A stretch of DNA of 64,000 nucleotides from the NCBI GenBank assembly GCA_946803585.1, contig CAMPEQ010000010.1:1-64000 (forward strand), read 5' to 3'. Each line of letters begins with the position of its first letter. Position 1 is the first letter of the stretch. This DNA comes from an uncultured Actinomycetes bacterium (lineage in GTDB: Bacteria; Actinomycetota; Actinomycetes; S36-B12; UBA10799). The translations under genes and the position numbers were made by a program. This document shows, piece after piece, positions 3,676 through 8,537 of the stretch. The notes beneath the pieces were generated by a model, which was given only the letters and a program-made list of their open reading frames with translations, did not search any database and was not told the DNA's origin.

Positions 3676-4593
3676 TTATCCGACTTCTTGGGCTCGGTTA
3701 GTGGTGCGTCCCGTATCGAGTTGGCCTTCTTGGCCGCGTGCGCGTAGGTCGGCAATGTGGGCGTCAAACTCCTCTTGAGTGACGACCTTGAGCGAGAAGA
3801 GCATCCGCGAGTGATCGACACCGCACAACTCAGCACAGCGACCTGCATAGGTACCGAGTTTGTTCGGGGTGACCTCGAAGACGTTCGTCCGCCCTGGGAT
3901 GACATCTAGCTTGTAGAGGAAGTTCGGCACCCAGAATGAGTGGATGACGTCAGGCGAGGTGAGTTGGAACTGCACCTTCTCATTGATTGGGAGCCACAAA
4001 ACAGGTGCCGCTGAGTTCTCGTCTGCCGGCACGTTCTGGCGACCTGAGCCTTGGGGTGAATCTGGGCGGTAGGCCGGCTGCCCAACGTCATAGACGTTCT
4101 CCTCGATGTAGTTGAAGGTCCAACTCCAGCGGAACCCGACGACGTTGACTGTCTGTGTCTGGTCATTGCTCACGCGAGTGATTTCGGCTTCATCGCGAGC
4201 GGAGAAGTAGAAGATTCCCACGACTGCGATAAGTGGCGCGATCGTCCAGAGCGCCTCGATCGGCATGTTGTACCGCGTCTGCACTGGAACATCCGAGTGC
4301 TTACGTCGCCGGTAGAAGATGAACGCCCAGAACATCAGGCCCCATACGAAAATTCCGACGATGATTAGAGCGATCCAGCTGCCCGTCCAGAAACTGAGGG
4401 TGATGGGTGCCTGCTCGGTTACCGGCTCCGGCATTCCACCTCGTTGCCACTCTGATAGCGAGCAGCCGGTGGCGACCACTGCTGTGAGCAGCCCCATTGC
4501 CACAACGCCCGCTCGCCGACCGAACTTCTGTCCGGGCAGTTGGGGGGTGCGTTGCGCACGCTTCGTGTCGCGTTCTTCTACGTGACCCGTCAT
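3676..4593 (-). CDS. ctaC: cytochrome c oxidase subunit II, lipoprotein-anchored
   Basis: A 305-residue subunit carrying the CuA electron-entry centre. After a basic N-terminus there is a lipoprotein signal (AVVATGC, Cys44), then two transmembrane helices at about 60-130, then the periplasmic cupredoxin domain. The CuA ligands are visible in HSFWVP and in [12 protein letters not shown] (C, E, C, H, M). First gene of the oxidase operon, with its promoter in the 181-base gap shared with the divergent NifS-like gene. Confidence 0.97.
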
Positions 4594-4774: not shown

Positions 4775-6022
4775 ATGTCGCGAGCATTCCTCGACTCCGC
4801 AGCCGGTCAGCCGCTCCACCCCTCCGCATTGGAGGCTCGGCGCGGCTTTTCTGACCGGACGTGGGCGGATCCCCATCAGAGTTATCACGAGGCTCGAGCG
4901 AGCGCGCAGGTGCTCAATGCCGCACGCGAGACGGTTGCCAAGGTTGTCGGGATCGCCCCAGCTGGGGTTAGCTTTCACCCAAAAGCTACTTGCTCGACCC
5001 TGGCAATCTCCGGCGCACACAAAGCGCTGGAAGCAAGGACAGATTCTTACCTAGTCTCGGGCGCGGCGAGTCACCCGCGGGTATTCGCCTCGCAGGTTGA
5101 GCGCGCCGAGGTCCTTGAATCGGTGCAAGGGCTACGGGAGGGGGCACTGGAGTTGCTGCCGGTCGATAGCGAAGGGCGTATCGATCTCACTGCACTATCC
5201 ACGATTGCAGCCGATGAAACTGCGAATCCTGGGCGATCGCGTGCACAGCCCTCCTTACTGGTACTTCAGAACGCAAACATTGAGGTCGGCACTCGCCAAC
5301 CGACCGCAACGGCACTGCACCACCTCCGGCTCGAGCGAGCTCCCCACGACCCCCAGCAGACCTCACATGGCGCCAGTCCCGCACCAGATGTGCTGGTGAC
5401 CGACGCAACGGGAAGCCTCGGCCTGGTTGATATCGATCCTGTGTGGTCGGTCTTGTTCGCCGATGCTGCGGGGTGGGCTGGCCCACCGGACATTGGGGTC
5501 CTCGCGATCCGAAGCCTGGAGCAGTGGCAAGCACCCACGAACTGGAATGGGACCGGAACTCTTCCCAGCGGGTATCCGATAGACACCGTGGGCGTTCTCG
5601 CGGCCGCTGAGACTGCGGCGGCACTGCACGCGGTCTACGCCGCTCGCCGGACTGAGACCGCCAGGCTCACCGCCCTAGTCGATCGAGTCCGGGAGGAGGT
5701 TCCCCGACGGATAGCTGATGTGGAGGTCCTAGGAGATCCGTTGGATCGGCTCCCGAATATCGTCACTTTCTCCGTCTTGTACGCCGACGGAGAACGCCTG
5801 GCCAGCGAACTCGACCGACTAGGCGTTGCAGTTGGTAGCGGGTCGGCCTGCGCATCGCGTGCTGGCCTGCCCAGCCACGTCCTGACCGCAATTGGCGCCC
5901 TCACCCACGGAAACGTCCGGGTTAGCCTGCCGCTAGGCGTGACAGACGCAGCTATCGATCATTTTCTTTCCGTCCTACCCCGCGCAGTAGCCGCTGTTAG
6001 GGACGAGGCGGGGGCACCGTGA
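4775..6022 (+). CDS. NifS/class V aminotransferase-like protein lacking the PLP lysine
   Basis: The 415-residue protein has the overall fold pattern of a cysteine desulfurase: LDSAAGQPLHP at the N-terminus, a histidine in the AASHPRVF stretch, and the group I persulfide loop GSACASRAGLPSHVL near the C-terminus. The lysine that normally binds PLP (S-x-H-K before a G-P motif) is absent: FADAAGWAGPPDIG has Ala-Gly there, the Lys position being residue 233 (codon GGG, 5471-5473). The usual Gln after the PLP aspartate is Gly (DATGSLG), and the NNE(I/V)G motif reads NIEVG. Cysteine desulfurase activity is therefore doubtful. It overlaps a TusA-like gene by four bases. I chose ATG 4775 because homology starts there; a TTG 42 bases upstream is possible. 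Confidence 0.8.
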   Translation: MSRAFLDSAAGQPLHPSALEARRGFSDRTWADPHQSYHEARASAQVLNAARETVAKVVGIAPAGVSFHPKATCSTLAISGAHKALEARTDSYLVSGAASHPRVFASQVERAEVLESVQGLREGALELLPVDSEGRIDLTALSTIAADETANPGRSRAQPSLLVLQNANIEVGTRQPTATALHHLRLERAPHDPQQTSHGASPAPDVLVTDATGSLGLVDIDPVWSVLFADAAGWAGPPDIGVLAIRSLEQWQAPTNWNGTGTLPSGYPIDTVGVLAAAETAAALHAVYAARRTETARLTALVDRVREEVPRRIADVEVLGDPLDRLPNIVTFSVLYADGERLASELDRLGVAVGSGSACASRAGLPSHVLTAIGALTHGNVRVSLPLGVTDAAIDHFLSVLPRAVAAVRDEAGAP

Positions 6023-6249
6023 TTGAACTCGACGAGCGGGGAAAGCGGTGCCCTGCACCTGTGATTTCTCTGGGCCGCGAGGCAAAAAGGATCGAGTTGA
6101 GACCGTTGGACATCGCGGTGCTCTCAGATGATCCGGCTGCGGCCTACGACATTCCAGCATGGTGCCGAATGCGAGGCGCGCGCCTAGCGGAGGTTCGCCC
6201 ACTCTCCGACGGCACCGGAACCAGATTTGTTGTCGTCCTGGACCACTAG
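6019..6249 (+). CDS. TusA/YeeD-family sulfur carrier
   Basis: A 76-residue protein with the family signature LDERGKRCPAPVISL; the CPxP cysteine is the persulfide-carrying residue in TusA. A second cysteine (AWCRMRG) sits in the central helix, as in many family members. TusA proteins receive sulfane sulfur from a cysteine desulfurase and pass it to thiolation or other acceptors. It begins with GTG overlapping the stop of the NifS-like gene (GTGA), so the two are translated together and probably work together. Its end overlaps the convergent aat gene by four bases. Confidence 0.88.
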   Translation: MIELDERGKRCPAPVISLGREAKRIELRPLDIAVLSDDPAAAYDIPAWCRMRGARLAEVRPLSDGTGTRFVVVLDH

Positions 6250-7007
6250 GTCTTGGGCCGCTGCGAGTCGCGATAGAACGGCTCGAAGGCAAGTGGATGA
6301 TCTAAGTCGGCGGGGCGAAGAGGTAATGCCGCTGCGAGTCGCTCGTGATGCTCCGAACGTGTGACTTCCCTAACGCCAAGGGTCCGCAAATGATCCGTCG
6401 CCCACTGAACGTCGATGAGGCGCCTGGCACCGGAGTTCGACTCGCCCGGGTCGACGGGGGTTGCCGCAAGCTCCGCACATAGGGCCCATAGCGCGACTTT
6501 GGAGGCATCCGTGCGGATGTGGAACTTCGACTCGGCTGCAAACAGACCACCGATTTGGACTCCGAACAACCCGCCCACGAGCCCTCCGGAGGCGTCCCAT
6601 ACCTCGACAGAATGAGCCCACCCGTCACGATGTAGAGCTTGGTAGGCATGTTTGAAGTCTGCATCTATCCACCCGTGCGGTCGACGCGGATCGGCGCAGT
6701 TAGCCACGACATCACTGAAGGCAGAGTTGAAACTGACTGAGTAGTCGCGGCGAGATCGCCGTAGCGAGCGGCTCACGTGGAAGTCGGCGGGCAGAAGCAC
6801 TCCCCGTGGGTTCGGCGACCACCAACCGATCTGCTCTGTGCCATCCGGCAGCTCCACCCCCATCGGGAAGATGCCGCTGGCATACCCGGCAAGCATCGTC
6901 GCGGGTTCAAGGTCTGCCCCGATCCCGATGAGTTCGGCATCATCAGGAGCTTCGAGCGGGTCAGGTAAGACCCACGGTGACGGTGGCGGATTGATCTGGG
7001 CCAGCAT
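6246..7007 (-). CDS. aat: leucyl/phenylalanyl-tRNA--protein transferase
   Basis: The 253-residue enzyme moves Leu or Phe from aminoacyl-tRNA onto proteins with N-terminal Arg or Lys, marking them for ClpS/ClpAP or ClpCP degradation (N-degron pathway). Family hallmarks seen: GIFPMG, WWSPNPRGVLLP, the conserved HGWID and the core GGLFGVQIGGLFAAESKF. Length is normal. It stands alone, convergent with the TusA-like gene. Confidence 0.96.
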   Translation of the reverse strand: MLAQINPPPSPWVLPDPLEAPDDAELIGIGADLEPATMLAGYASGIFPMGVELPDGTEQIGWWSPNPRGVLLPADFHVSRSLRRSRRDYSVSFNSAFSDVVANCADPRRPHGWIDADFKHAYQALHRDGWAHSVEVWDASGGLVGGLFGVQIGGLFAAESKFHIRTDASKVALWALCAELAATPVDPGESNSGARRLIDVQWATDHLRTLGVREVTRSEHHERLAAALPLRPADLDHPLAFEPFYRDSQRPKT

Positions 7008-8144: not shown

Positions 8145-8537
8145 CTAGTGGAACGAGTCACCGCAGGCGCAGGAGCCTGTCGCGTTGGGGTTATCGATCG
8201 TGAATCCCTGCTTCTCAATCGTGTCAACGAAGTCGATGACTGCGCCCCCGAGATACGGAACGGACATACGATCCACAACGACGGCTACTCCGTCGAAGTC
8301 AATCTTCTCGTCGCCATCGAGGGCACGATCGTCAAAAAACAACTGGTAGCGCAAGCCAGAGCAGCCACCTGGCTGAACGGCAACTCGAAGTGCGAGGTCA
8401 TCTCGGCCCTCTTGGTCGAGCAGGGTCTTCACCTTCACGGCGGCGCCGTCGGTCAGGACAACGGATTCAGCCGCAGTCGCGACTGCGGCATCGGTGACAA
8501 CGTCGGTTGACTCAGTGGTCGAGGTTTCTGCGGTCAT
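8145..8537 (-). CDS. erpA: iron-sulfur cluster insertion protein, ErpA/HesB type
   Basis: A 130-residue A-type carrier that delivers Fe-S clusters to apoproteins. The three cluster cysteines are visible: GGCSG in the middle and SCACGDSF at the C-terminus. The first 25 residues or so are an acidic, low-complexity extension found in several actinobacterial homologues. Single gene. The 227 bases upstream (8538-8764) hold its promoter and no gene that I can support. Likely clients in the window are NadA and LipA. Confidence 0.94.
   Translation of the reverse strand: MTAETSTTESTDVVTDAAVATAAESVVLTDGAAVKVKTLLDQEGRDDLALRVAVQPGGCSGLRYQLFFDDRALDGDEKIDFDGVAVVVDRMSVPYLGGAVIDFVDTIEKQGFTIDNPNATGSCACGDSFH

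Follow-up and report, generated by a model that had tools for sequence, protein, structure and literature searches.

A ctaC-linked NifS-like protein without the PLP-binding lysine, coupled to a TusA-like carrier: a candidate persulfide relay in Actinomycetes

The window analyzed here is a stretch of 64,000 nucleotides (contig CAMPEQ010000010.1, assembly GCA_946803585.1) from an uncultured Actinomycetes bacterium. An ORF at 4775-6022 on the plus strand was found to encode a full-length NifS/IscS-type protein, with a divergent ctaC gene on one side and a TusA-like gene on the other. The features of the locus are as follows.

3676..4593, minus strand: ctaC, cytochrome c oxidase subunit II; divergent, conserved neighbor (Pfam COX2, synteny in relatives)
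4775..6022, plus strand: NifS/IscS-like protein, 415 aa; Gly233 at the PLP lysine position, loop Cys359 kept (ORF, alignments, AlphaFold2, PDB folds)
5102..5104, plus strand: Arg110 at the position of IscS His104, which stacks on PLP (alignment, site rates)
5462..5464, plus strand: Asp230 at the position of IscS Ser203, a PLP phosphate contact (alignment, site rates)
5471..5473, plus strand: Gly233 codon GGG at the PLP lysine position, IscS K206 (alignments)
5843..5884, plus strand: persulfide loop SACASRAGLPSHVL, residues 357-370, with the Cys359 codon at 5849-5851 (Cys in 183/183 family members)
6019..6249, plus strand: TusA-like sulfur carrier of 76 aa with a GTG start and a CPAP motif (Pfam TusA; no other TusA detected in the genome)
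6246..7007, minus strand: aat, leucyl/phenylalanyl-tRNA protein transferase; convergent, usual neighbor in the order
8145..8537, minus strand: HesB/ErpA-type iron-sulfur insertion protein, member of the conserved neighborhood (profile matches, synteny)

The NifS-like protein matches the Pfam profile Aminotran_5 above its cut-off, and its AlphaFold2 model (from an alignment with 27 relatives) has a mean pLDDT of 91. The model shows the IscS/NifS fold, the nearest solved folds being IscS of Mycobacterium tuberculosis (best match, 4isy, TM 0.81-0.90) and of Archaeoglobus fulgidus, the latter also being the best PDB match by sequence. The score against the curated NCBIfam NifS equivalog (120.9 bits) is below the cut-off of 530.75, which is a weak discriminator, as the canonical IscS of the same genome also falls below it (311 bits). 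An insertion of ~16-20 residues at window 5312-5393 (residues ~180-206) is absent from the other 27 aligned members.

The position of the PLP lysine was set by alignment with canonical IscS proteins from the window's order and with PDB IscS chains. Other E. coli IscS residue numbers were transferred by aligning motifs and from background on the IscS residues. In the window protein the lysine segment reads DAAGWAGP, compared with the canonical S-A/G-HK-x-GGP, which places Gly233 at the PLP lysine and Ala232 at His205, as a sequence-only reading of this DNA had proposed. The same reading had the pocket Gln and an Asn changed, and these are found as Gly213 (Gln183) and Ile169 (Asn155), the second being weak evidence alone, as even the family members with the lysine have His at that position. 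This family column 169 (window 5279-5281), His in those members and Asn155 in IscS, is a peculiarity of the PLP site of the family. Missed by that reading were the replacement of His104 by Arg110 and of Ser203 by Asp230, and a phosphate loop in which S-G-T reads K70-A-T72. Its description of a full-length gene coupled to a CPxP protein, with the persulfide loop and its cysteine kept, agrees with the alignments: Cys359 (C328) is intact within SGSACASRAGLPSHVL, Asp210 (D180) is the only one kept of the pocket residues His104, Gln183 and Asp180, and Arg382 (R354) is also retained. Only three lysines are left in the protein (56, 70, and 83), none of them conserved, and Lys70 is not shared by any other member of the family. 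An assembly error behind Gly233 was considered and rejected, since same-genus homologues have Thr at position 233 and likewise lack the wider pocket. The activity of E. coli IscS is abolished by any one of the changes K206A, H104Q, Q183E, D180G, and C328S (PMC9978102), and three of the five residues concerned are missing from the window protein.

The GTG start of the TusA-like gene at 6019 overlaps the stop of the NifS-like gene by 4 bp (GTGA). Its product, with C11-P-A-P as the CPxP motif, scores 46.8 bits with Pfam PF01206 (cut-off 28.6) and 31.9 bits with the NCBIfam TusA equivalog, below the 78 bits required there. No second TusA was detected in the window genome. Residues D38 and D44, matched by eye to D45 and D51 of E. 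coli TusA, are nearly or fully invariant in the aligned partners. Elsewhere in the genome a canonical IscS is encoded at C10:108745-110028, adjacent to mnmA, and SufS is present together with a scaffold of SufU type. The NifU_N protein that adjoins SufS on another contig is the only IscU/SufU-type protein found in this genome.

Sixty relatives and 118 genomes of the class were searched for the family, whose typical arrangement, a divergent ctaC neighbor and a TusA gene downstream of, or fused to, the NifS-like gene, is present at the window locus. With the family profile, members score above ~300 bits and canonical IscS below 295; three exceptions, one of them a partial frame and the other two short and divergent, were assigned by their neighbors. 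The family is set apart from canonical IscS by profile score and in the tree (support 100). Of 183 distinct members, 173 have ctaC beside them on the opposite strand, and at the remaining 10 it was not detected within the 0-2.1 kb of upstream sequence available. Downstream of TusA, the usual order in the window's order is aat, a PfkB kinase, and HesB. Other classes of the phylum have more distant NifS-like loci, of which some include TusA and several clearly retain the lysine; no relatives were found in viral contigs, and no papers on the ctaC-linked NifS-like/TusA module were found in the literature. Two contigs titled as Acidobacteria and Acidimicrobiales MAGs (L144, L187) bear a NifS-like/TusA gene of actinomycete type, through mis-binning or transfer. 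Neither the NifS-like gene nor any TusA was detected in two genome-reduced genomes of family f6, genus g12 (G015, G026).

The TusA gene lies downstream of, or is fused to (L021, L029, L032), the NifS-like gene in most family members, and the CPxP motif is present in all 29 TusA partners of lysine-less members. A TusA adjoining the NifS-like gene was not found in several genomes of family f5, in two of family f10, or in G034. Five f5 genomes without a gene-adjacent TusA have a different TusA elsewhere; G033, G056, G037, G041, and G047, with no linked TusA, carry a different, higher-scoring one at another site. TusA was not detected anywhere in the genomes of G014, G044, G034, G062, and G085. 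The loop cysteine is kept even in NifS-like members without TusA, and since G014, G044, and G034 are lysine-less, keep this cysteine, and have no detected TusA, TusA cannot be the sole acceptor.

An alignment of the ctaC-adjacent homologues at the PLP lysine position, which the sequence-only reading had suggested as a check, gave Lys in 145 members and another residue in 38, a ratio that is not a frequency because 75 of the lysine-containing loci came from a pattern scan of named genomes selecting for lysine. Without these loci there are 70 members with Lys and 38 without, relatives of the window genome being oversampled. The residues found in place of lysine are Ser (10), Asp (8), Met (5), Thr (4), Gly (4), Ala (4), Tyr (2), and Ile (1), and the loop cysteine is kept in all 183 members, including the 38 without lysine. 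Most lysine-less members belong to the window's order (Candidatus Nanopelagicales), where they occur in families f1, f3, f5, and f6 and in genus g20 of f7, while the sampled members of f4, f2, and the rest of f7 keep the lysine; beyond the order, loss was seen in three genomes of the class from other families (L131, L132, L136). The statement of the sequence-only reading that this position varies in ctaC-adjacent proteins is thus correct for the window's order and for three families elsewhere, but not for the class sample at large, which nearly always keeps the lysine. Similarly, the suggestion of a change conserved in a lineage holds for the loss itself, which is retained across whole families, but not for the replacing residue.

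Both the quick and the careful trees need 4-5 changes at the lysine, and well-supported branches force at least two. The lysine-less members formed one clade in 0 of 200 bootstrap trees, although the AU test does not significantly reject such a clade (p 0.084). The PLP lysine was therefore probably lost more than once, with the count not settled. Lysine-less branches are longer in the tree. At family column 212 (window 5408-5410) the lysine-less members mostly read D-A-T, compared with D-A-A in lysine-containing members and D-A-V in IscS; D-A-T is also found in the D180 segment of A. fulgidus IscS, and this sharing is possibly a convergence.

Site rates were estimated separately for lysine-containing and lysine-less members. 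The PLP-contacting columns, those of IscS A75, T76, H104, N155, S203, H205, and K206, lie at percentiles 1-24 in the lysine-containing members and at 37-88 in the lysine-less ones. In the latter, C359, S355, G356, V369, L370, R382, and D210 remain at or below the 6th percentile, and H368 and N168 are also among the slowest columns. A conserved relocated lysine was sought and rejected, no column having Lys in more than 12% of the lysine-less rows. Thirteen lysine-less proteins (one partial) have no Lys at all in the NifS domain, and in these a relocated Schiff-base lysine is thereby excluded; seven of them, one fused to TusA, have none in the whole stop-to-stop frame. Conversely, 35 lysine-containing proteins have no lysine other than that at the PLP position. 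The dN/dS ratio of the closest lysine-less pair is 0.154, against ~0.14-0.25 in close lysine-containing pairs, values that describe relatives rather than the window gene; saturation affects those from more distant pairs. Purifying selection on related lysine-less pairs at this level argues against pseudogenes. The proposal that the window protein lacks desulfurase activity is strongly supported at the sequence level, the lysine and the pocket being lost together, relatives lacking any NifS-domain lysine, and the single changes K206A, H104Q, or Q183E each inactivating E. coli IscS.

Lysine-less IscS proteins are already known. As cited in PMC7585200, A. fulgidus IscS is described as having no PLP lysine and no desulfurase activity, with its loop cysteine ligating a cluster on IscU, and Methanosarcina acetivorans IscS1 is suggested to be similar. 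The A. fulgidus protein (PDB 4eb5, 4hvk, 4r5f; IscS-IscU) resembles the window protein in its IscS fold, in a replaced lysine (Asp there), and in the retained loop cysteine. It differs in being archaeal and in keeping His104 and Asn155 in the alignment, whereas most of the pocket is gone from the lysine-less actinobacterial proteins; its partner is IscU, whereas by gene context the partner here is TusA, and it is this pairing that distinguishes the actinobacterial case. The E. coli IscS-TusA complex (PDB 3lvj) is alike in that the loop cysteine of a NifS-fold protein meets the CPxP cysteine of a TusA with the conserved aspartates, but the E. coli enzyme is an active desulfurase with Lys206, His104, and Gln183 in place. 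Its Trp45, a main TusA contact, has no evident counterpart in the window protein when the sequences are matched by eye. Within the family, lysine-containing members (Streptomyces, Nonomuraea, Actinomadura, and others) share the neighborhood and an adjacent or fused TusA, but still have SAHKWGGP and His104; desulfurase activity is probable for them. The canonical IscS of the window genome shares the fold and loop cysteine, yet it has the PLP lysine, His104, and Gln183, lies at another site, and has no adjacent TusA.

On balance, the reading somewhat favored for the window protein is a desulfurase-dead persulfide relay that would feed TusA within an actinobacterial ctaC-linked module. The ancestral NifS-like form would have kept the PLP lysine and presumably drew sulfur from cysteine for TusA; in the window lineage the PLP site would then have decayed while the persulfide loop and TusA stayed. 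Cys359 would most likely be loaded with a persulfide by some other source, for example the canonical IscS or SufS of the same cell or a low-molecular persulfide, and the CPxP cysteine of TusA would then receive it. The two cysteines concerned, that of the IscS loop and that of TusA, lie ~4 A apart in the E. coli complex (PMC2854127). A relay or scaffold role is consistent with the invariance of the cysteine loop, with the persistence of TusA, at times as a fusion, and with purifying selection, and the window protein probably passes sulfur on rather than making it. Against a bare relay stands the near invariance of D210 and R382 in lysine-less members, as a relay has no obvious need of them. 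The equivalent residues of IscS contact PLP and substrate. As a speculation, a small-molecule ligand may still occupy the vacated pocket, or the two residues may form a structural salt bridge.

These two residues would also suit a protein that is still an active PLP enzyme, holding PLP without the lysine or through Lys70 in its phosphate loop. E. coli IscS K206A retains some PLP (PMC9978102), so that the window protein may likewise hold some. Such activity is nevertheless very improbable: Lys70 is unique to the window protein, several relatives have no lysine whatsoever, the phosphate-contact residues are replaced, often by Asp, and IscS is inactivated by H104Q, Q183E, or K206A singly. A module decaying toward loss, with no specific present function, would agree with the longer lysine-less branches and with the genome-reduced g12 relatives in which both genes went undetected, but full-length frames, an invariant cysteine loop across many genera, and the dN/dS near 0.15 make this quite improbable.

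Two further alternatives grant the protein a function other than sulfur carriage. As a pseudo-subunit or docking platform, it would pair with canonical IscS or TusA to regulate or position them, its own cysteine standing outside sulfur chemistry. Dead partners of active subunits do occur among fold-type I PLP enzymes, as with Lcb1 of serine palmitoyltransferase, but a purely structural role would not demand that the persulfide cysteine and its loop be among the slowest-evolving parts of lysine-less members, and this explanation is improbable. As a cysteine-ligand scaffold, the loop cysteine would assist in holding an iron-sulfur cluster under assembly, or some other metal, the role put forward for A. 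fulgidus IscS. The standing of that protein as closest PDB sequence and the steady HesB/ErpA neighbor speak for such a role; it is unlikely, though worth serious consideration, as the linked or fused partner is TusA rather than IscU and the sole IscU/SufU-type protein found sits beside SufS on another contig.

If the relay reading is extended to the family, a cysteine desulfurase of Actinomycetes may, quite tentatively, have given rise several times to a PLP-free sulfurtransferase that retained just its persulfide loop and TusA partner and would act, at the cytochrome oxidase locus, as a dedicated relay for persulfide. The lysine-less proteins are easily mistaken for cysteine desulfurases by their fold. 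If the reading is true, they would represent a natural experiment in which making a persulfide is split from passing it on, and a protein set that opens the relay half to study in isolation from the PLP half. It would also point to an uncharacterized sulfur module, kept beside respiratory oxidase genes across much of the class.
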